Assembly (NCBI GenBank): GCA_016787345.1
Contig: JAEUUU010000175.1
Span: forward strand, 62,001-126,000
Length of the DNA: 64,000 nt
Origin: Saprospiraceae bacterium
GTDB taxonomy: Bacteria > Bacteroidota > Bacteroidia > Chitinophagales > Saprospiraceae
Direction of reading: 5' to 3'
The position numbers were made by a program, and so were the translations under genes. Below the pieces are notes generated by a model that saw only the letters and a list, made by a program, of their open reading frames with translations, ran no database searches and had not been told where the DNA came from. Positions 5,748 through 57,944 of this stretch are shown in pieces (within the stretch, counting starts at the first letter, position 1; every line of letters begins with the position of its first letter).

Positions 5748-6593
5748 ATGGATAAAAGAAGTTTTGAATACACGGATAGCCGTCTGGAAACCGGCGCCGC
5801 AGCGTTGTACGAACTCAACGTCGTGGCCGGTACTGACGGCTTTTCGTTTTTGGCAGCCGACCCGACCGGCACGATCCTTTCGCTGAAATCCTGGCATTTC
5901 GACCCGTATGAAGATCCTGCCCAGGGGCCGTCGTCGGCCATTCTTCGGATACTCGATGAAGAACCCTTGCTCAACGCCGTGTTCAGTCATGTACGGTATG
6001 CTGTGTTTGGCACAGAAACGACCCTGGTTCCTCGCCGTTTGTTCAATCATGACGAATTGCCCGCTTATTTCAGGCTGTTGTTGCCTCCAGGTAATTTCGA
6101 GTTTGGACATAGCGCTTTGCCGGATTTCGATTGTTACCTCGCTTACGCGGTCGAGCAAGAACTGGCTTCTGTATTGCGACAACGTTTTCCGGCAGCACAA
6201 AGCCTCCATCTGGCGGCGCCTGTGCTCTCCAGGGCCCTTCAAATCATCGGTTTCGACTCGACTGGCGTAATGGCTAATTTGCGCCACGGCGTCGTTCAGA
6301 TTGTAGCGCTGGAACGAGGCAATCTGCTGTTTTACAACACGTTCAAATTCGATACAGCCAGCGATCTCTTGTACTTTGTACTGTTGGTATACGACCAATG
6401 CCGGCTGAATCCGGATCAGATGCCGCTGTATCTGGCTGGCGAATTGTTGCCCGATTCGGAGATTTATAAAGTATTGTACCGCTATATCCGCCATTTAAAC
6501 TTTGTCGGCCCACCGCTCAACTATTTCTGGCCTCACGACGTCGCCGCACCGCCGGATCACCTCTTTTTTGATCTGTACAGCCTGAAATTCTGA
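5748..6593 (+). CDS. DUF3822 family protein
   Basis: A 281-residue protein that matches the Bacteroidota family DUF3822, whose fold suggests an ASKHA-like ATPase relative but whose function is not established. Visible features are an N-terminal FEYTDSRLETGAAALYELNVV, the central FDCYLAYAVEQEL segment, and the C-terminal HLNFVGPPLNYFWPHD. No signal peptide or membrane helix is present. It lies 12 nt upstream of rsmD on the same strand; this DUF3822-rsmD order is common in the phylum, suggesting a linked role or simple co-expression. Confidence 0.8.
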   Translation: MDKRSFEYTDSRLETGAAALYELNVVAGTDGFSFLAADPTGTILSLKSWHFDPYEDPAQGPSSAILRILDEEPLLNAVFSHVRYAVFGTETTLVPRRLFNHDELPAYFRLLLPPGNFEFGHSALPDFDCYLAYAVEQELASVLRQRFPAAQSLHLAAPVLSRALQIIGFDSTGVMANLRHGVVQIVALERGNLLFYNTFKFDTASDLLYFVLLVYDQCRLNPDQMPLYLAGELLPDSEIYKVLYRYIRHLNFVGPPLNYFWPHDVAAPPDHLFFDLYSLKF

Positions 6594-6605
6594 TCAATTT
6601 GATTT

Positions 6606-7142
6606 ATGCGTATCATCGGAGGAAAATTCAAAGGCCGGCGTTTCAATCCGCCGGCCGATAAATGGCCAACCCGGCCTACGACCGACTTTGCCAAGGAAGC
6701 ATTGTTCAATATCCTGAACAACCTGCTTGATTTTGAATCGGTACGTTTTCTCGACCTTTTCGGGGGGACGGGCAGTCACAGTTATGAGTTTATTTCCAGA
6801 GGCTGCACAGATGTAACTTATGTCGACAAATTCCCCGGTTGTGTGCAATTTGTACAAAAAACAGCCCGGGAGTTAGGCATACAGGAGCAACTTCGCATCC
6901 TGCATATCGACGTATTCCGTTTTATTGAAAGCGCTTCGGGCCAATGGGACTACATTTTTGCAGGTCCGCCCTATGCTTTGCCTACCATCGATACCATTCC
7001 CGACCTGATTTTTGAAAAAAACCTGCTGGCGCCCGAGGGGCTGTTCGTACTGGAGCACAATCCGCACCACGATTTTGTCAACCATCCGCGTTTGAAAGAC
7101 GTGCGGAATTACGGGCAGACGTACTTCAGTTTTTTTGAATAA
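6606..7142 (+). CDS. rsmD: 16S rRNA (guanine966-N2)-methyltransferase with altered catalytic motif
   Basis: RsmD-type SAM-dependent methyltransferase for G966 of 16S rRNA, 178 residues. Seen: the N-terminal MRIIGGKFKGRRF and RPTTDFAKEALFNIL that define RsmD, SAM motif I FLDLFGGTGSHSYEF (49-62), the acidic VDK after it, and motif IV at residues 117-123. Motif IV reads FAGPPYA where the family normally has (D/N)PPY. The codon at 6963-6965 is GGT, one base from GAT. All other parts look intact, so this may be a clade-specific tolerance, a recent mutation, or a sequencing error. Confidence 0.9.
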   Translation: MRIIGGKFKGRRFNPPADKWPTRPTTDFAKEALFNILNNLLDFESVRFLDLFGGTGSHSYEFISRGCTDVTYVDKFPGCVQFVQKTARELGIQEQLRILHIDVFRFIESASGQWDYIFAGPPYALPTIDTIPDLIFEKNLLAPEGLFVLEHNPHHDFVNHPRLKDVRNYGQTYFSFFE

Positions 7143-7172
7143 GCCCTGGGCTCATCCCGGTCATTTTTACGG

Positions 7173-7685
7173 TTACTGCTTGCAAATCAGGATGATAGGC
7201 GGTAACGCTACTTCATTGCTGACGTGCCCGGCGCGGTCGCGGATATTGACTTTGTAAATCACCGTATCGCGCAAAAAATTGGGCGCAACACTGGGGTCGC
7301 AGGGTGGGAGAGGGATGCCGTTCAGCGGCGGCGGTATGCAGCAGGTTGGAGGCAGAACGAAAGAAATAGTGCCCGAAATGCCGTTTCCGGCGCCTTGTTG
7401 TTCTACCAGCGGCAGACTGAGCGTGTCGCCCGAATTGTCGCGGGTATCGATCACACTGATGTCATTGCCTTTTTCAGCCGAACCCAGGTCGCCGTCGCCG
7501 TCGGTAAATTCAAGCGTGACCAGCAGCGTGTCTGTATCGTCAATGGCGCTCTGGAATTGGGTGTTTTTGGTCAGGCTTTTAAACGTAATGACCGGTTCAT
7601 CGGGATAATCCGGCGGTTTTACGCAAAACTGGAGGGCGCCGGCGAAGGCAAACAGGATCAGGAGAAAAGGTGCGATGTTTTTCAT
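7173..7685 (-). CDS. Putative lipoprotein, function unknown
   Basis: A 170-residue exported protein. A hydrophobic signal (residues 1-20) ends at C21 in GALQFC, which would be a weak lipobox. The mature part has an acidic TDGDGDLGS loop and the ISVIDTRDNSGD region resembling Ca-binding beta-sandwich loops, then VNIRDRAGHVSNE near the end. Two adjacent cysteines (PPTCCIPPP) and a C-terminal cysteine suggest disulfides. ATG at 7685 was chosen because it places the signal peptide at the N-terminus. It resembles small lipoproteins common in Saprospiraceae; no enzymatic motif was recognised. Confidence 0.75.
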   Translation of the reverse strand: MKNIAPFLLILFAFAGALQFCVKPPDYPDEPVITFKSLTKNTQFQSAIDDTDTLLVTLEFTDGDGDLGSAEKGNDISVIDTRDNSGDTLSLPLVEQQGAGNGISGTISFVLPPTCCIPPPLNGIPLPPCDPSVAPNFLRDTVIYKVNIRDRAGHVSNEVALPPIILICKQ

Positions 7686-7744
7686 AGCAGGTGGACGGTT
7701 CGCGATGTCGTATTTTGCGACCAAAATTGCGCAATTTGTACGAG

Positions 7745-8737
7745 ATGCCAACACCCGATCGAGCTGAATTGTTGTCTGCCCTGGCTGATTTGACACCGGA
7801 GAACTTTGAGACGACCGCACTGGCGGTATTTCGTTACCAGGCCGCAACCAATCCCTTGTTTGCCCGATGGCTTCACCTGCTGGGAAGGGACCCGCTGAGC
7901 GTCCGGCGTCTTACCGAGATCCCCTGTCTGCCCATTCGTTTTTTTAAAACAATGGATATTAAAAGCGGGCAATGGAAGGAGCAGACGGTGTTTACCAGCA
8001 GCGCGACCACCGGTCAGACCCCCTCACGACACCTGGTGCGGCAACTTGACAACTACTTGCTGAATACCAGAAAAGGCTTCGCGGAACAATACGGGCCGCC
8101 TGAAAACTGGTGTTACCTGGCTTTGCTGCCTGCTTATCTGGAACGCAGCGGCTCTTCACTTGTCGTGATGGCCGACGACCTGATCAGTCGTTCCCTTTAT
8201 GCGCAAAGCGGCTTTTTTTTGAATGATTTTGAACGACTGCGCGACACGATTCAGGTGTGTCAGTCGCAAAAAATACCGACTATTTTGCTCGGCGTGAGTT
8301 TTGCCCTGCTTGATTTTGCGGATCAATATCCGATGGCTTTGCACGGTATTACCGTGATGGAAACCGGCGGGATGAAAGGTCGCAGAAAGGAATTGACGCG
8401 CCAGGAACTGCACGAAATCTTGCAGAAAGCGTTTCAGATACCGGAAATTCATTCGGAATACGGCATGACGGAGTTGTTTTCCCAGGCATACAGCAGGGGA
8501 AATTTGTTTCAACCGGCGGCAAGTTTGCGGGTTGTAGCGACCGAAGTCAATGACCCGTTCTGTCCGGTTGGCCCCGGGCGAACCGGCGTGCTCAACTGTA
8601 TTGATTTGGCCAATCTGGATACCTGTAGTTTTATAGCTACCGAGGATCTCGGGAAAGTTGGCGCCGACCATCGTTTCGAAGTGCTGGGGCGACTGGATCT
8701 CGCAGAAATGCGCGGTTGCAACCTCATGGTTGAATGA
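7745..8737 (+). CDS. LuxE-like acyl-protein synthetase
   Basis: A 330-residue protein of the acyl-protein synthetase (LuxE/PF04443) type, relatives of adenylating enzymes. Typical marks are the N-terminal FRYQAATNPLF, the IPCLPIRFFKT segment, the serine/threonine-rich adenylation loop TVFTSSATTGQTPSRH (about residues 80-95), METGGMKGRRKELTR, and EYGMTELFSQAY as the adenylate-contacting loop. C-terminal IATEDLGKVG and FEVLGRLD close the domain. It lacks the lux operon; in Bacteroidota these proteins probably activate a carboxylic acid for lipid or surface-polymer work, which is inference. ATG at 7745 was preferred to an upstream ATG lacking family similarity. Confidence 0.85.
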   Translation: MPTPDRAELLSALADLTPENFETTALAVFRYQAATNPLFARWLHLLGRDPLSVRRLTEIPCLPIRFFKTMDIKSGQWKEQTVFTSSATTGQTPSRHLVRQLDNYLLNTRKGFAEQYGPPENWCYLALLPAYLERSGSSLVVMADDLISRSLYAQSGFFLNDFERLRDTIQVCQSQKIPTILLGVSFALLDFADQYPMALHGITVMETGGMKGRRKELTRQELHEILQKAFQIPEIHSEYGMTELFSQAYSRGNLFQPAASLRVVATEVNDPFCPVGPGRTGVLNCIDLANLDTCSFIATEDLGKVGADHRFEVLGRLDLAEMRGCNLMVE

Positions 8738-8773
8738 AGTTTGAATTAATAACCTGTTGTCAAACAGAAATTT

Positions 8774-9277
8774 ATGCGAATTGGTCTTCTCTCGGATACC
8801 CACTCTTTTCTCGACGACCGGATATTTACGCATTTTGAGGAATGTGATGAAATCTGGCATGCCGGTGATTTTGGTAACATGGAGGTGCTGATGCGCCTGC
8901 GCGAGTTCAAACCGTTGAGAGGAGTTTATGGAAATATCGACGACAAAAAAATTCAGGCCGAGGTGCCGCTCGACCTTCGCTTCGAATGTGAAGGCGTACC
9001 TGTTTTTATGACGCATATCGGCGGGTACCCGGGGCGTTACAACCCGCGGGTAAAAAAGATTTTACAGGAAAATCCACCTGTGAACGGGTTGTTTATCTCC
9101 GGGCATTCGCATATCCTCAAAATCATGCCCGATCCTGTGCTCCATTTTCTGCACATCAACCCCGGCGCTTGCGGCAATGAAGGCTGGCATCAGGTCAAAA
9201 CCTTGGTTCGGTTTACATTGGAAAAGGGAAAGATCGATGCGGTGCAGGTGATTGAATTGGGCAAAAGAGGGCGATAG
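8774..9277 (+). CDS. YfcE/MJ0936-type metallophosphoesterase
   Basis: A 167-residue calcineurin-like phosphoesterase. All five metal-binding blocks are visible: DTHS near the N-terminus, AGDFG, YGNIDD, MTHIGGYPG and SGHSHILK. These small enzymes hydrolyse phosphodiesters in vitro; the natural substrate is usually unknown. It lies 36 nt after the LuxE-like gene on the same strand and may be co-transcribed. Confidence 0.9.
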   Translation: MRIGLLSDTHSFLDDRIFTHFEECDEIWHAGDFGNMEVLMRLREFKPLRGVYGNIDDKKIQAEVPLDLRFECEGVPVFMTHIGGYPGRYNPRVKKILQENPPVNGLFISGHSHILKIMPDPVLHFLHINPGACGNEGWHQVKTLVRFTLEKGKIDAVQVIELGKRGR

Positions 9278-9371
9278 TTGGGCAGATAACAGATATTTGC
9301 ATACACGATTGGGAGAAACCTTTTCATAGCAGTGTCGTTTTGTTTATTTCGTTCATTCAAACCAATTTATT

Positions 9372-10418
9372 ATGAAGCGTTTCTTTCTACTCTTACCCAT
9401 TTTAATGTTTCTGTGCGTGAATGTCAGTGCACAAGTTGTTGACACCGTGTTGTTTGAAGATTTTCAAGGTGATGTCGACCCTACCGAAGACTGGTTGCTT
9501 TTCCCGTTGGGCAACGATACGACCTGGGTCAATCTGGATGAGGATGGTCTGGTGCCTTTCGACGGTGAGGATTATTCGTACCGTTGGTTCTCCACTGAGT
9601 TTTTTGTGGATGCAACTGACTCGGTGACCGGTATCACCAACTACTGCATTGCGTCGCTGTCGTACATGCAGGATTTTCTGCCGGGCAACCGCAACTGGAT
9701 TATTACTCCGCCTATTCAGGTAACGGACGACTCTTACACGTTGCACTGGAAATCGGCGCCTTTCCAGTTGCCCCGGTACATGGACGGGTACTCCGTTTGG
9801 CTTTCCACCAATGGAAATGACCTCTTCGGTGCGAGCAATCCCTTCACCAACTTGTTGTTTCGCGCGGCATCCATGGAGGCCATCACGGGAGAAGGAGAAA
9901 GTATCGACTTGTCCAATTTCGCGTTTACGCCCGGGTATATTCACGCTGATTCGCTGCGCGATCAAGAATATTTCCGGCTTTGGGCGCCAGGCGATTCCAC
10001 ACTTTGCCGCGGCTACCTGGAACCGCATTCTGTCAGTTTGGCTGCTTATGCCGGCCAGACGGTCTATATCGCCTTCCTGCACGATTCGGACGACGACTAT
10101 TACCTCGCCATGGATGATTTTCTGATTACCCGCACACCTGCTTCGGGCGTTAGCTGGCTGGAACAGGATTTGCGTTTGCGCACTTTTCCGAATCCCGCCG
10201 ATCGTTATCTGAACGTCATGTTCCGCCTTCAGGAAGCCACTCGGGTAACCCTGCAGGTGCACAACATCAATGGCCAACTGGTATGGCAACAATCGGGCAA
10301 TATGGCCTCGGGCGAACAAATGCTGGATATTCAGCTGGCGCACTGGCCGGCCGGCGCTTATACGCTCAGCCTGCAAACCTGTCAGGGCACATTGAGCCGT
10401 CCCTTTGTGAAAAAATAA
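9372..10418 (+). CDS. Secreted T9SS cargo with choice-of-anchor J domain
   Basis: A 348-residue exported protein. The signal peptide (about residues 1-20, ending VSAQ) is followed by a beta-sandwich of the choice-of-anchor J / cleaved-adhesin type: VLFEDFQGD, NRNWIITPPIQV, YTLHWKSA, YIAFLHDSDDDYYLAMDDFLI. The C-terminal 75 residues form a T9SS type A sorting domain (LRTFPNPADRYLNV, VHNINGQLVWQQ, WPAGAYTLSL, FVKK). It is expected to cross the outer membrane through the type IX system and be anchored or released at the surface. Ligand unknown. Confidence 0.9.
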   Translation: MKRFFLLLPILMFLCVNVSAQVVDTVLFEDFQGDVDPTEDWLLFPLGNDTTWVNLDEDGLVPFDGEDYSYRWFSTEFFVDATDSVTGITNYCIASLSYMQDFLPGNRNWIITPPIQVTDDSYTLHWKSAPFQLPRYMDGYSVWLSTNGNDLFGASNPFTNLLFRAASMEAITGEGESIDLSNFAFTPGYIHADSLRDQEYFRLWAPGDSTLCRGYLEPHSVSLAAYAGQTVYIAFLHDSDDDYYLAMDDFLITRTPASGVSWLEQDLRLRTFPNPADRYLNVMFRLQEATRVTLQVHNINGQLVWQQSGNMASGEQMLDIQLAHWPAGAYTLSLQTCQGTLSRPFVKK

Positions 10419-37062: not shown

Positions 37063-38517
37063 ATGTCGGGAGTAAAAAAGTCGGAAAAGGTCGCTCTTCA
37101 CACCAACAGAGTTTATCAGGCGCTCAGTCATCTCGAAAACGGCGAGTTGAAGCGCTTGTCCAAATACCTGCAGTCGCCCTATTTCAACCAAAGTAAATCG
37201 CTCAATAAATTGTTTGAATTGCTGCTTCGGTATGTCGAGGACCAGAAGGAAGGCTTTGACCGTTATGAGGTCTGGAGAAAGATGTTTGCGGGTGAGCCTT
37301 ACGACGATACCAATTTTCGAAAATACTGTTCGGACCTGTTGAAACTCGTGGAGAATTTTATGGCGCATGAAACACTCGAGCGAGATGAGACGCGCCAACG
37401 GATTCATACGCTTGAATTCGTCGTCAAAGATAAAGTTGAGCCCCTGTATAACAGTGTTTTAAGGCAGGCCAGATTACATGCAGACGCTGATTCGTACCGA
37501 AATCTTTATTACTTTTATAATGCTTACCTTATAGAACGGCAGTATTATGCAATGTCGGATTTTGATGTGAGACTGGATGTGCGCCCTAATATTGAAGAGA
37601 TTTCATATAATCTCGATATATTTTACTGGATCGAAAAACTGAAAATACAAATCGCTGTATTAAGCCAGAAAAAAACGAGGAGTCATGTATATTCGGTCAA
37701 CTTCATGGAGGAAATTATTGCTTTTTTGCAAAAATTCCCTATGGATTCTATACCAGAATTATCTCTATATTATTATTCTTTTTTAACGCTCTACGATGAG
37801 GAAAACCCTAGTCATTACTATAAATTAAGGTCGCTGCTGGATGAGTATGGCAATGATATGCCACAAAAAGAAGCGGTTGAGTTGTATGACCTGGCTCTCC
37901 ATTACTGTACAGGAAAATTAAATCAGGGCGACCGCGTGTTCCTGCAGGAATACTTCGACGTTTTTGACGAAGCGATGCTTCGCAAAATATTTATTATAAA
38001 TGGAGAATTGGCTTCCTGGCGTTTTAACAATGCCATTGGAGTGGCCCTGCGCCTGGGGAAAATGGACTGGGCCGAAAAATTTATTACCACTTACAAAGAG
38101 AACCTGCCTGCTCAAACAAGAGAAAATACGTCGTCGTTTTCATTGTCCAGGGTTTACTTGTATCAAAAACGCTACAAAGACGTACTTAGGATATTGCAAA
38201 ATGTTGATTATGAAGATATTGGCTATAATTTGATTAGTAAGGCCGTACTCATAATTACCTACTATGAACTGGATGAAGCAGATGCGCTGGACTCCTTCCT
38301 CGAGTCCTTCCGCGTTTTCCTCAATCGCCACAAAAATATACCCGCCCAACGCCGAAAAAGTTACCTCAACCTGATTAAGTACGTCCGCCGGCTCACCCGC
38401 CTGCTCCCCAATGACCAGGCTGGAATTACCAGACTCCGGGAGGAAATCATACGTGATAAGGCTTCTACCGTCAATCATGAATGGTTGCTGGAAAAACTGG
38501 CCGAACTGGATGGTTAA
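37063..38517 (+). CDS. Long helical-repeat (TPR-like) protein, unknown function
   Basis: A 484-residue soluble, mainly helical protein without signal peptide or membrane segment. The N-terminal 100 residues (ELKRLSKYLQSPYFNQSKSL, YDDTNFRKYCSDLLKLVENF) look like a separate helical module; the rest has TPR-like pairs such as LYQKRYKDVLRILQNVDYED. The central part (about 37500-37800) is AT-rich relative to neighbours. Its layout matches the 502-residue protein encoded at 55028-56536: similar length, N-terminal module, an aromatic-rich middle and a closing RRxSxxxLI helix. I do not recognise a named family; the class is common in Saprospiraceae. Scaffold or peptide-binding roles are guesses. Confidence 0.75.
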   Translation: MSGVKKSEKVALHTNRVYQALSHLENGELKRLSKYLQSPYFNQSKSLNKLFELLLRYVEDQKEGFDRYEVWRKMFAGEPYDDTNFRKYCSDLLKLVENFMAHETLERDETRQRIHTLEFVVKDKVEPLYNSVLRQARLHADADSYRNLYYFYNAYLIERQYYAMSDFDVRLDVRPNIEEISYNLDIFYWIEKLKIQIAVLSQKKTRSHVYSVNFMEEIIAFLQKFPMDSIPELSLYYYSFLTLYDEENPSHYYKLRSLLDEYGNDMPQKEAVELYDLALHYCTGKLNQGDRVFLQEYFDVFDEAMLRKIFIINGELASWRFNNAIGVALRLGKMDWAEKFITTYKENLPAQTRENTSSFSLSRVYLYQKRYKDVLRILQNVDYEDIGYNLISKAVLIITYYELDEADALDSFLESFRVFLNRHKNIPAQRRKSYLNLIKYVRRLTRLLPNDQAGITRLREEIIRDKASTVNHEWLLEKLAELDG

Positions 38518-54119: not shown

Positions 54120-55031
54120 ATGAATCACATCATTTATCGTGATCCCTACATCACGATTTTTCAAAGCGTTCTTTTTCAGACCAACTCCACCGTCATTAAA
54201 ACTGACGAAGTGGTACTGGTTGTCGATCCTGCCTGGCTGCCCGACGAGGTACTGGCCATCCGTCAATACGTCGACCTGATCCGCGAAGACCGCGCAGTTT
54301 TCCTCATTTTTACCCATTCCGACTACGATCACATCCTTGGATACCGGGCTTTTGATGCCGACAAGGTATTTATGACCGAAGCATTTGCCAACAACCCGGG
54401 TAAAGAAGATATCATCGAACAGATCCTCGAATTCGACGAGAAATACTACATCGAAAGGCCTTACCCGATCGAATACCCAAAAGGCGACTTTCTGGTGTTC
54501 CGCGATGGCGTACATTACCGCCACGGCAATACCAAAATGACTTTTTACCTCGCCCCTGGCCATACGGCCGACAGTATGATGGTCGTGATCTGGCAACTCG
54601 GACTTTGTATTGCCGGCGATTATCTTTCCAATATCGAATTCCCCTTCATCTATCACAGCAGCGTGGAATACGAGCGCACCCTGGACAAAATGCCGCGAAT
54701 TCACGACCGTAACTGGTTTACAAGACTCATTCCGGGGCACGGCGACCCGGCGCTCAACATCAACGACTGGCTGCGGCGCCGGACCGAAAGCCTGGCGTAC
54801 ATCTATGCGTTAAGGGAAAGTATAGCTACGGGCGTTCCGTTTGATGAAGATTCGTTGTGGACCCGATACCGCTACCCACGTCTGCAACAGCAGTACCATA
54901 CCAATAATGTGATGTTGATGCGCCGTGAATACGAACAAGGTCTGTGGACCTGGGATCCCGATGCGTTGAGCGATCTACACTCGGCCGACTTGCCCGAACA
55001 GGGCTCGGAACTGGAAGAGGACAACGATTAG
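54120..55031 (+). CDS. Metallo-beta-lactamase-fold hydrolase with variant metal motif
   Basis: A 303-residue cytosolic MBL-fold protein. Metal-site residues: first motif FTHSDYDHILG (66-71), where the usual HxHxDH has Asp at the second His position; then H148 in APGHTADSMMV, D167 in CIAGDYLSN, and H207 in IPGHGDPA. The C-terminal 90 residues (RRRTESLAYIYALRES, NNVMLMRREYEQGLWTWDP) are helical and acidic at the end. Substrate unknown; many such proteins are glyoxalase II- or RNase Z-like. It overlaps the convergent gene by 4 bp. Confidence 0.85.
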   Translation: MNHIIYRDPYITIFQSVLFQTNSTVIKTDEVVLVVDPAWLPDEVLAIRQYVDLIREDRAVFLIFTHSDYDHILGYRAFDADKVFMTEAFANNPGKEDIIEQILEFDEKYYIERPYPIEYPKGDFLVFRDGVHYRHGNTKMTFYLAPGHTADSMMVVIWQLGLCIAGDYLSNIEFPFIYHSSVEYERTLDKMPRIHDRNWFTRLIPGHGDPALNINDWLRRRTESLAYIYALRESIATGVPFDEDSLWTRYRYPRLQQQYHTNNVMLMRREYEQGLWTWDPDALSDLHSADLPEQGSELEEDND

Positions 55032-56536
55032 GCCTCGGGTTTCAGGATTTCCCAGAGGTCTTCGTAGGGAATAATTTCCACGGCAAAGGTTTGTCCTGCC
55101 ACGCGGGGACCTTCTGCGGCGAGCACTTCCAGTTCCTTGGCGATTTTGCGGTCGGCCGGGCCGGGTCGGAAAGGCCGGTCGGAGAGCGCAAACAGGATTT
55201 TCATAAACGAGGCGCTGCGGCGGTTGAGATCGTTGTTGAGGTAGCGAATGCGGTATTTTTCAAGCGCCTCGACGGAGCGGCCGTACTCCTGGTGGTCGCC
55301 GGAGGCAAGGCTGAACAACACGGGAAGCATGACGAGCGGGATGTTCATACCGAGTTTGTCTTTGTCAAAGACCTTGATTTCGTTGGAAAATTTGGCGTAG
55401 CGGAAAGCGCCAACGACATTTTCCACTTCTTTTTTGTCAAGTTTGTCAAGTGCTGCGAGCAAGTGAAGATATCCCCCAAAAAGATGCCACTCGTCCCTTG
55501 CGTTGTCGGAGAGAAGTTTGAATCGGGCCTGATTTGTAGCCTGCCGGTATATCTCGAGTGCGTCCTCGTATCTTTTTCCGTAGATGGAGTAATAAAAGTA
55601 GAGGCTCATGGCCTTATACCAGTTGTAACCGCCTTCTTCTGAAAGTTCAAGGCATTGCTTGGCGGTCTCATCGTTTTGCTCAAAAATGTGTAATTGAGTG
55701 AGGCATGCCAGTTTATTCAGGGCGAACGTCAGTATCGTGCCACGGTTGGCTGCTTTTCGGTTTTTAAGAAGCGGCAGGATTTCCTCACAAAGTTTCAGTG
55801 CACCCTGGCAGTCATTGATGGAAAAATGCTGGATTAGACCGATAGAATAGGTGTTGTAATAAAATTCGTGCGTGTCAATCTCCTTCAAGCGGGGCTGTAA
55901 TTCCAAAAAGTAAGCAGTGGCCTGTTCGTGAATCTCTTGATCGGGAGAACGTTTGACGATGTAATGGTTTAGTAATGTTTCGTAATAGTCGAAAGAAATC
56001 GTCTCCCAGCCCCTTTTGTGCTCATACGAACGATGAAGTTCGGCGTAGTATTCATGCTGGGATCGGTCGCCAAGCGAGCGACTATATTGCTTGCGCAATG
56101 CTTTGAGAATCTCGCAGGTAATTTCGGTGAATTCAAATTTGAGCGACTGCTCAAGCGTCAGGAGCAACAGGTAGGACCCCGCTTTTTTGGCCTGCCTTGC
56201 AATTAGAATTTGCGCAGCAGCCAGGTCTCGATTGCAGTTTACGAAAGCGGTATTTCTGTCTCCAAAAAGGCTTTGCTGGGCATCAATAAAAAAAGAGGTG
56301 TTTACAAGTTGGCGAATCAGTTTGGCTCTAACACGCTTGTAGGAAGGATCTTTTGCGTTCACTTTCAGCAAACCCTGGGCGGCATCCTCGTCGGTTTTGA
56401 ACTTTCCTTTCGCTATTCCTTCGTACAACAATTCGGTCCGGCTTTCCTCTTGCCCCGGGTTGCCGAGAACCTCAATCTGTTTCACCTTGTTTCGTGTAAT
56501 AATATTAACAAGGTCGCTAAGTACGTCAAAATCCAT
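55028..56536 (-). CDS. Long helical-repeat (TPR-like) protein, unknown function
   Basis: A 502-residue soluble helical protein. The N-terminal module (about residues 1-90) contains ESRTELLYEGIAKGKFKTDE and SYKRVRAKLIRQLVNTSFFI; the rest has TPR-like helix pairs such as YGKRYEDALEIYRQATNQAR, ending NDLNRRSASFMKILFALSD and PYEDLWEILKP. It shares length and layout with the protein at 37063-38517, so both likely belong to one rapidly evolving family. It reads divergently from the AT-rich region that holds the small tagged proteins; a role as their receptor or regulator is speculative. No DNA-binding HTH was recognised. Confidence 0.75.
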   Translation of the reverse strand: MDFDVLSDLVNIITRNKVKQIEVLGNPGQEESRTELLYEGIAKGKFKTDEDAAQGLLKVNAKDPSYKRVRAKLIRQLVNTSFFIDAQQSLFGDRNTAFVNCNRDLAAAQILIARQAKKAGSYLLLLTLEQSLKFEFTEITCEILKALRKQYSRSLGDRSQHEYYAELHRSYEHKRGWETISFDYYETLLNHYIVKRSPDQEIHEQATAYFLELQPRLKEIDTHEFYYNTYSIGLIQHFSINDCQGALKLCEEILPLLKNRKAANRGTILTFALNKLACLTQLHIFEQNDETAKQCLELSEEGGYNWYKAMSLYFYYSIYGKRYEDALEIYRQATNQARFKLLSDNARDEWHLFGGYLHLLAALDKLDKKEVENVVGAFRYAKFSNEIKVFDKDKLGMNIPLVMLPVLFSLASGDHQEYGRSVEALEKYRIRYLNNDLNRRSASFMKILFALSDRPFRPGPADRKIAKELEVLAAEGPRVAGQTFAVEIIPYEDLWEILKPEA

Positions 56537-56594
56537 TATTTACAATCTTTTGTATATTAAATATATTATTAATGTATATAAGATTTTCGTAAAT

Positions 56595-56656
56595 CTGCAC
56601 GAAGTGAATTATAGAAAATTGTCCTGTTTTTTAGTATCGACATGCGTGCACCTTTG
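56595..56656 (+). promoter_or_regulatory. Repeated promoter-like element, copy 1
   Basis: CTGCACGAAGTGAA at 56595, GTCCTGTT at 56621-56628, a 20-nt spacer, and CACCTTTG at 56649-56656 (7 of 8 to TAnnTTTG). It shares order, spacing and most bases with copies 2 and 3. Confidence 0.55.
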
Positions 56657-56694
56657 CTCCGAATAATTCTGTAAAAATAAACCATTCTTTACGA

Positions 56695-56913: not shown

Positions 56914-56975
56914 GAAGATTTTGAACCAGTTTGCACGGCAAGTGTAAAGCGTGGAAAGCCATCTTTTTGCCCAAA

Positions 56976-57036
56976 CTGCACGTAGTGAAACTTGGAGAAG
57001 TGTCCTGTTCCAGGCCGTCGGGTAGCTTGACTTTTG
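56976..57036 (+). promoter_or_regulatory. Repeated promoter-like element, copy 2
   Basis: CTGCACGTAGTGAA at 56976, GTCCTGTT at 57002-57009, a 19-nt spacer, and GACTTTTG at 57029-57036. It sits 34 nt before the first tagged gene and probably drives both. Confidence 0.6.
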
Positions 57037-57070
57037 TCTCAGAATTTTTGAACAAATTAATTCAAGCGCC

Positions 57071-57220
57071 ATGACTCTCATTACTCTCGCACTCGGACTG
57101 CTCCTCTCCACCTTAGAGCCTTCTAATTCTTCATCCGAAATTCAGCAAACAGAACAGCAAGCTCTGCAAAGCCAAGGTGAAGGATGTGACTTTATTATCG
57201 TAGACGATACGGACATGTAA
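57071..57220 (+). CDS. 49-residue protein with C-terminal DFIIVDDTDM tag
   Basis: A tiny protein: a hydrophobic N-terminus without positive charge (TLITLALGLLLSTL, residues 2-15), a hydrophilic Ser/Gln-rich middle (SSSEIQQTEQQALQSQGEG) and the tail CDFIIVDDTDM, whose last ten residues D40-M49 are identical to the end of the next protein. A single cysteine, C39, directly precedes the tag. No family was recognised. It is the first gene behind promoter copy 2 and lies 56 nt before its partner. The identical tail, encoded by different codons, is the main evidence that the gene is real. It could be a secreted peptide precursor, a tagged effector, or a ribosomally made natural-product precursor; none of these is shown. 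Confidence 0.6.
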   Translation: MTLITLALGLLLSTLEPSNSSSEIQQTEQQALQSQGEGCDFIIVDDTDM

Positions 57221-57276
57221 GGCAATTTTATTTGTATTTGAACATTTCATTCAATCAAATTTAATGTCTTGCATCG

Positions 57277-57612
57277 ATGAAGCGAATTTATATTTTATTT
57301 ATTTTAATTTTTCTTGCTTTTTTCTCATTCCAAAACAAAACGCAAGCCCAGACTGCTGCCGATCCTACGGACGCCATTTACGACCTCAACATCACCCATA
57401 GCTCCCCAACAAGTGTGATGCTGGTTTGGGATTCGTACAACAGCGGCGGATCGTACTTGGTAACGGTCAGAAATGCAAGTAATAATCAGATTGTACGAAA
57501 TCTGGAAACTTCCGGCACTAGCCTGCATGTCGATGGATTGGAAATTGGTACGAAGTACATCTTTACAGTCTCGAAAAATGATTTCATAATCGTTGACGAC
57601 ACTGATATGTAA
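57277..57612 (+). CDS. Secreted fibronectin III-like protein with C-terminal DFIIVDDTDM tag
   Basis: A 111-residue protein with a clear signal peptide (residues 1-25, KRIYILFILIFLAFFSF, ending TQAQ) and one fibronectin type III-like domain at about 31-99 (DLNITHSSPTSVMLVWDSYN, GSYLVTVRNA, LHVDGLEIGTKYIFTVSKN). The place of the last strand is taken by DFIIVDDTDM (102-111), the same ten residues that end the 49-residue protein upstream. No T9SS sorting domain or lipobox is present. Co-transcription with the upstream gene is likely (56-nt gap, no terminator). The tail may be a sorting, processing or recognition signal. Confidence 0.75.
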   Translation: MKRIYILFILIFLAFFSFQNKTQAQTAADPTDAIYDLNITHSSPTSVMLVWDSYNSGGSYLVTVRNASNNQIVRNLETSGTSLHVDGLEIGTKYIFTVSKNDFIIVDDTDM

Positions 57613-57840
57613 GATAAAGACCGCCATTACTTAATACGAATCCGGTACTTCAATATCGAAAATTTCAATCTTGATATAAAAATTATATTTAATATATAGG
57701 AGCCCTTTTTTTTAGGCAACCTTATGCATAAAATATTGATTAATAATTTGTTGTGTGTGTCTGCCTAATGCAAACATACATTGATTAATCACATTCCCGC
57801 CTCCCGGTACACACCGGAACTCCTTCCGCTAGCCCTCAAT

Positions 57841-57901
57841 CTGCATGGGTTAAAATGGGTCGTTTTGTCCTGTTTTGAGGTCAGGCACAGCCTCACCTTT
57901 G
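57841..57901 (+). promoter_or_regulatory. Repeated promoter-like element, copy 3
   Basis: CTGCATGGGTTAAA at 57841, GTCCTGTT at 57867-57874, a 19-nt spacer and CACCTTTG at 57894-57901. The match extends past the -7 box (TTTGTGTCGGAAAGTTT compared with TTTGTCTCAGAATTTTT in copy 2). Confidence 0.55.
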
Positions 57902-57944
57902 TGTCGGAAAGTTTAGTCAACGAATAGTCGAATCTTTTTTCCGC

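Follow-up and report, generated by a model that had tools for sequence, protein, structure and literature searches.

Two adjacent small genes of a Saprospiraceae bacterium encode proteins that end in the same ten residues, DFIIVDDTDM, and this tail is probably the active part of a secreted peptide signal that would be sensed by a cytoplasmic TPR receptor encoded next to them. We favor a peptide signal with an intracellular receptor because the short precursor joins a leader to a species-specific core, a TPR gene lies adjacent to it, and related precursors in Hymenobacter carry tandem cores with an importer gene in the same run. The window, that is, the whole stretch of 64,000 nucleotides that was analyzed, contains the features listed in Table 1. 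The initial annotation had placed the two small genes correctly but omitted the divergent TPR gene.

Table 1. Features of the locus (positions in the window)
Feature	Position	Strand	Description and basis
49-aa candidate signal precursor	57071..57220	+	Leader hydrophobic and free of K/R; linker variable; 10-aa core at the C terminus
Core (tail DFIIVDDTDM) of the short precursor	57188..57217	+	Putative mature signal
111-aa FnIII-domain protein	57277..57612	+	Hydrophobic start; same ten C-terminal residues; candidate second signal carrier
Tail DFIIVDDTDM of the FnIII protein	57580..57609	+	Last beta strand in the model
Promoter-like element	56972..57043	+	27 nt 5′ of the short precursor ATG; E 7.5e-14; part of the element model
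Second element copy	56592..56657	+	Some 55 nt away from the start codon of the TPR gene; E 1.7e-8; outside the element model
Third element copy	57837..57905	+	Strongest in the window; 3′ of the FnIII gene; E 6.1e-15; outside the element model
502-aa all-helical TPR-like protein	55028..56536	-	Candidate cytoplasmic receptor; AlphaFold, homologs, Foldseek

Two adjacent proteins end in the same ten residues

Rereading of both open reading frames (ORFs) confirmed that the 49-aa and the 111-aa protein each end in DFIIVDDTDM followed by TAA. The identity of the adjacent C termini is far beyond chance, with a rough uniform estimate of about 6e-13 per pair for ten identical residues at two such ends. 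A comparison of codons agreed with the initial annotation that seven of the ten tail codons differ between the two genes; all of the differences are silent. Without gaps, the 60-nt stretches directly 5′ of the tails share 12% identity. Because of the silent differences and the unlike flanks, the pair is not a recent DNA copy, as the initial annotation had already concluded.

When back-translated, the tail pattern occurs in exactly two copies in the organism's own genome assembly, which is rated 94% complete. With up to two mismatches allowed, the exact tail was found in 1 of 60 genomes, its own, and was absent from the 59 related ones. The search for the tail in other genomes that had been suggested with the initial annotation therefore gave a divided answer: among the genomes searched, the exact letters are confined to this one, but their pattern and position recur in relatives.

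The short precursor belongs to a family with a patterned core

A protein search with the 49-aa gene returned homologs in three genomes of the same genus (E 2e-5 to 4e-3) and weaker matches in six more. These relatives carry species-specific tails of similar pattern at their C termini. In the loci read for them and for homologs of the FnIII protein, examples of such C termini are DFVVIEEIYP and NFIITEEGMP, and helical genes of about 470 to 510 aa lie nearby in most of these loci. We compiled 23 precursors, 22 of them with clade-1 TPR genes and one from locus L085; since they were found by tail or leader rules, this set leans towards the pattern. Counted from the leader Met, the precursors are 42 to 57 aa long. 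Their last ten positions are mostly D/E/N, then Y/F, I, I, two variable residues, mostly D/E, two more variable residues, and P or M. The final residue is P in 21 of the 23 and M in the other 2, including the precursor of the window. A strict form of the pattern, [DEN][FY][IV][IV]xx[DE]xxP, fits 17 of 23 and leaves out the window, L096, L098, L101, L132, and L085. The linker is nearly free in sequence. No K or R is found within the first 15 residues of any of the 23 leaders when the start is set at the leader Met; an earlier start is present in 10 of the 23 ORFs and would run through the promoter-like element described below.

The core is under purifying selection. Pooled over 16 ortholog pairs, pN/pS was 0.38 overall, 0.29 in the leader, 0.48 in the linker, and 0.27 in the tail, values that come from nonindependent pairs and, in several tails, from saturated pS. 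The tail value, together with a second genome in which a precursor and an FnIII gene also share their tail through silent differences only, supports the suggestion of the initial annotation that selection acts on the peptide. The closest relative, G025, carries a TPR fragment 95% identical to that of the window, and its contig ends inside the locus; many of the compared genomes are metagenome assemblies.

A short hydrophobic N terminus that lacks positive charges would also suit a membrane toxin or membrane regulator, with the C terminus merely a topological tail. The constrained core positions speak against such a role, as do the identical tail on a folded FnIII protein and the tandem cores of Hymenobacter, and we regard it as very unlikely.

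The precursor is paired with a divergent TPR gene

To describe the pairing, we used 84 TPR genes, deduplicated by their last 120 residues; 6 with a short upstream flank were dropped, which left 78. No minimum was set for the downstream flank, and 4 of the 24 closer TPR genes had less than 700 nt of it. Under the tail rule, which was written after tails had been seen, a small ORF with a hydrophobic start and a loosely matching tail was counted. Among genes at least 38% identical to the TPR gene of the window, a divergent upstream precursor was present in 20 of 24, as against 2 of 24 upstream on the same strand and 0 and 0 of 24 in the downstream positions. Fisher's test of the divergent position against the other upstream strand gave a P value of 2e-7, a figure that takes related genes to be independent. 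All four genes without a hit lie in TPR tandems, as the second or third copy. Partners became scarce with distance: among the 31 genes of 28 to 38% identity, the tail rule found 5 divergent precursors, 2 upstream on the same strand, and 0 and 5 downstream; the numbers for the 23 genes below 28% were 1, 1, and 0 and 1, a group that includes Hymenobacter loci, whose precursors fail the tail rule and are counted as misses.

In three sets of loci, a leader-only rule, which disregards the tail and was written after leaders had been seen, placed a candidate divergently upstream in 13 of 16, 21 of 33, and 12 of 28. Its counts elsewhere in these sets were 1, 1, and 1 for the same strand upstream; 1, 1, and 1 for the opposite strand downstream; and 0, 0, and 6 for the same strand downstream. 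Around an unrelated helical family (A3), the rule gave 0 and 0 of 30 upstream and 3 and 7 of 30 downstream, and the 3 on the opposite strand are FnIII tail genes. The leader-like ORFs found downstream on the same strand, both beside A3 (7 of 30) and beside TPR genes of the phylum set (6 of 28), were rejected as candidates; they mostly resemble fragments of ordinary genes. By eye, a divergent leader peptide of 40 to 46 aa is visible in distant loci titled Saprospiraceae (L118, L123, L129, L134, L136, L153, L119, L135, and L138).

The TPR protein is a candidate cytoplasmic receptor

Homologs of the 502-aa protein occur in all 37 genomes of the genus that were searched (the organism's own is one of them) and, over the whole set, in 45 of 60. 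Inspection by eye revealed no signal sequence. The AlphaFold model is an all-helical row with a pLDDT of 87, and the nearest solved structures in a Foldseek search are mostly TPR proteins, led by eukaryotic LGN/Pins, with NprR at ranks 12 and 33; none of the matches reaches an E value of ≤0.001. Since the matches are weak and led by the eukaryotic proteins, the predicted fold says only that this is a TPR-like protein. The protein of the window has no Pfam match of its own at an E value of ≤1, and some of 16 orthologs show weak Pfam TPR matches. A profile of 16 TPR sequences recovered none of the PDB sequences at an E value of ≤10. No Pfam match to a DNA-binding, helix-turn-helix (HTH), or phosphatase-type effector domain was found in the window protein, the 16 orthologs, or the Hymenobacter loci. 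In an alignment of 54 sequences, four of the five invariant columns fall in the segment VEIIPYEDLW (residues 485 to 495), which looks like the peptide tails; we speculate that it might serve as a built-in pseudo-ligand, to be displaced by the peptide.

The annotated neighbors in the window are the Der GTPase, an MBL-fold protein (54120 to 55031), and valyl-tRNA synthetase (ValRS). Searches of family libraries returned fn3 for the FnIII gene and MBL-fold for 54120 to 55031 above the cutoff and nothing else. Two Saprospiraceae-like TPR loci, L096 (in a record titled Thermoanaerobaculia) and L117 (Kordia), are possibly on misbinned contigs.

A promoter-like element precedes the precursor genes

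A 72-nt promoter-like element precedes the precursor gene. It consists of a CAATC-N6-GATTG-like dyad, TGTCCTTTTTT, and then ACTTTTG-N2-CA at fixed spacing. The model was made from an ungapped alignment of 22 loci, cropped to equal length; locus L132, where no element was evident, was excluded from the alignment and later scored 15.1 bits (E 0.008). In all 19 loci measured, the element lies 27 to 35 nt before the ATG of the peptide gene. A second copy, outside the model, is found near the TPR start in 20 of the 21 named loci where a peptide is visible, with E values from 2e-12 to 0.013. Matches are present in 17 of 38 genomes, all in the genus, and in 0 of 14 genomes outside it, and the strongest of them are mostly at TPR loci. 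No small ORF is evident after the third copy in the window, which precedes the valyl-tRNA synthetase gene. A search for a wider regulon gave several strong matches that are not at TPR loci (G004:C140, G008:C63, G004:C18, and G014:C182); neither these nor the weaker matches shared a consistent downstream gene.

The FnIII protein as a second carrier of the tail

The 111-aa protein matches Pfam fn3 with an E value of 6e-6 and 26.8 bits (cutoff, 25). Its AlphaFold model was made from only 2 sequences and has a mean pLDDT of 74, with about 71 over residues 101 to 110; the tail forms the last strand (residues 103 to 110), in agreement with the view in the initial annotation that it takes the place of the last FnIII strand. 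Homologs are found in 24 of 60 genomes at an E value of ≤0.01, many within larger open frames. Locus L103 (the same place as L075, genome G010) encodes a 57-aa precursor ending in DYIIAMDINP, and directly 3′ of it lies an FnIII gene with the same tail, written with silent differences at 6 of 10 codons. Each of the two loci, the window's and L103, thus has one tail shared by peptide and FnIII protein, and the tail differs from one locus to the other.

Alternatively, the identical tails of the window might have arisen by recombination or chance and share no function. Such pairs were found at these two loci only, the related locus L143 gave no FnIII match, and the peptide and FnIII tails differ in seven other genomes (G004, G008, G021, G024, G027, G033 and, within contig reach, G020). 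In all seven, the FnIII gene lies away from the peptide gene, often beside the second helical family. However, both identical pairs differ by silent changes only and their flanking sequence is unlike, and we give this explanation little credence. Among the genomes in which a clade-1 peptide was read together with an FnIII tail protein, identity is restricted to the window genome and G010, so the idea of a second carrier rests on two loci; probably the FnIII gene serves only occasionally as a further carrier of the signal. If its last strand were the signal itself, the fold would hide the signal until cleavage.

We rejected the idea that the second helical family, A3, belongs to the same receptor family, as there was no profile match (hhalign probability, 0.5%). 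FnIII tail neighbors were seen in 6 of 30 A3 loci; five of these are loci from which the profile was built, which leaves 1 of 25 others. A member of this family of about 470 aa is encoded in the window at 37099 to 38505 (+), and the family has 28 matches in the window genome. Locus L052 has two neighboring FnIII lipoprotein-like genes (7893 to 8273 and 8797 to 9183, both on the minus strand) with a tail-like stretch inside the domain and at the C terminus; the internal stretches read DFIIVTDDVV and DFIIVVDEEV.

Hymenobacter precursors carry tandem cores beside an importer gene

The TPR gene is present in 112 of 120 Hymenobacter genomes searched. We read 33 loci, of which 30 were the best scoring rather than a random sample. 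The precursor gene is divergent from the TPR gene and encodes a leader like MFELLxxALFQF followed by core copies, for example, GGTGWGGD. Core copies lie on the divergent strand in all 33 loci (20 found by pattern, 9 by eye, and 4 as frame-based arrays); the frame-based arrays are L206, L219, L227, and L228, three of which run off the contig. The number of copies ranges from 1 (L207 and L209) to 16 (L206). Copies inside one precursor are alike, with few variants, and a hand count gave 21 different majority cores among 31 scored loci, about seven of them common to two or three loci. In L213, six copies do not differ even at the DNA level, and recent duplication therefore contributes to the tandem cores. 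Some of these precursors exceed 100 aa, up to 184 aa. With the start set at the leader, K and R are absent from the first 20 residues of 20 of 20 leaders. In all 7 loci with a longer flank, which are among the 33, the gene directly 3′ of the precursor encodes SBP_bac_5, the OppA family; a BPD_transp_1 permease then follows in both loci tested. The window genome has two SBP_bac_5 genes, away from the TPR locus, and at least one is present in 39 of 41 genomes of the genus. On the other side of the TPR gene in L161, a LytTR response regulator and a hybrid histidine kinase are encoded (6174 to 9376, minus strand); it is possible that they are the output of the system.

Could the tail act inside the cell, as a docking tag? 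TPR carboxylate clamps, such as those of Hop and CHIP, bind EEVD tails, and our case likewise combines a TPR superhelix, as predicted, with an acidic-hydrophobic C-terminal peptide. The TPR protein, as a chaperone or secretion adaptor, would then bind the C terminus and aid export, and no signaling would be involved. An adaptor would fit the gene pairing equally well and would find the same tail on the FnIII protein. Unlike clamp ligands, however, the tails belong to small, presumably exported proteins and vary between species, and in the short precursor there is no further domain that could be exported. The Hymenobacter cores, moreover, are in tandem, many of them internal, and OppA is the next gene in all seven longer loci. 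We consider a docking tag unlikely.

A sorting tag, one of the meanings offered in the initial annotation, fits poorly: the tails diverge between species, accompany the TPR gene, and become tandem internal cores in Hymenobacter. C-terminal sorting domains of the type IX secretion system (T9SS) occur on secreted Bacteroidota proteins, and the tail resembles them as a C-terminal element on presumably secreted proteins of this phylum. It differs in being only ten residues long, species variable, and tied to one adjacent TPR gene, and neither window protein matched a T9SS sorting-domain family in Pfam or NCBIfam at an E value of ≤1.

The layout of leader, linker, and core and the multicore precursors are found in ribosomally made modified peptides (RiPPs) too, and the short genes might encode modified or antimicrobial peptides of the RiPP or bacteriocin kind, with the TPR protein as immunity protein or regulator; the core of a modified peptide was also among the meanings offered in the initial annotation. 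This seems improbable, as no RiPP-type enzyme is among the annotated neighbors in the window and seven Hymenobacter loci; those annotated in Hymenobacter are OppA, the permease, the LytTR regulator, and the kinase.

The TPR family was detected in 21 of 296 genomes drawn from the phylum, which fall in the organism's own family, one family of the same class, and five further families. Both loci of the same-class family (L235 and L236) have Hymenobacter-like precursors. By eye, divergent leader peptides with other C termini are seen in about ten of the 29 loci L231 to L259, and four of these end in DRxED.

A proposed signaling mechanism and its known counterparts

The mechanism we propose is as follows. 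The 49-aa gene would encode a precursor with a hydrophobic leader, a variable linker, and a species-specific C-terminal core, and the divergently transcribed TPR gene would encode its cognate cytoplasmic receptor. The precursor would be exported and cut, and the peptide would accumulate outside the cell. An Opp-type importer would then take it up, and the peptide would bind in the TPR superhelix. The bound peptide may alter the receptor's action on a partner, and this partner would control promoters with the 72-nt element, the peptide's own included. Less certainly, the folded FnIII protein would carry this signal as well. Of the three meanings that had been offered at first for the tail, a released signal peptide fits best; the release itself we infer.

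RRNPP systems are treated as a Bacillota or Gram-positive family in passages of PMC10075063, PMC13220807, and PMC9765709. PMC10075063 gives a precursor size range of 10 to 100 aa and describes a detector run on Firmicutes and viruses, and PMC11343458 describes tandem propeptides in RRNPP(A). Like Rap-Phr, NprR-NprX, PlcR-PapR, and AimR-AimP, the system described here has a short-precursor gene adjoining a TPR gene, with export presumed in our case. The putative mature peptide is C terminal or in tandem copies, going by sequence, and the cores are species specific. An Opp importer gene is next door in Hymenobacter and elsewhere in the window genome, and NprR is among the Foldseek neighbors of the window TPR model. 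The window-type precursors fall inside the size range, whereas some of those in Hymenobacter are longer. The predicted all-helical model and the weak Foldseek and Pfam matches are consistent with a TPR superhelix as the receptor.

There are also differences. The host phylum is Bacteroidota; no sequence relation to solved receptors was detected in the PDB, a comparison that covers solved members of the family; the receptor has no HTH or other effector domain recognized by Pfam; the leaders lack K and R; and an FnIII second carrier and the 72-nt element are additional. Because no sequence kinship to solved receptors was detected and no HTH was found, we do not file the system as an RRNPP member. 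Our best reading, by analogy, is a Bacteroidota system that operates in the manner of RRNPP quorum sensing.

We lean towards a broader interpretation as well, that peptide communication of this kind extends across the phylum Bacteroidota. Species-specific oligopeptides, with cores from single C-terminal ones to sixteenfold tandem arrays, would be exported, taken up, and sensed by a TPR family that has no detectable sequence kinship to RRNPP receptors, and a secreted FnIII protein would sometimes display the signal too, as its last strand. No description of such a Bacteroidota system was found in the literature within reach, which comprised titles and the starts of abstracts and excluded bioRxiv and most subscription journals. 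If the proposal is true, a Gram-negative phylum has quorum-type peptide-TPR signaling, and candidate density signals are at hand; synthetic peptides of the predicted sequence could be tested at once. One would then have to ask by what route a linear peptide gets across two membranes, and there would be an independent case of peptide-TPR signaling in which to study the continued match between signal and receptor.

Another class of peptides is encoded downstream of TPR paralogs (L066, L065, L087, L088, L126, and L127), two of which are in the organism's own genome. Peptides of the L066 type end in patterns like SVIIIDITGV or IIVIDVMGV.
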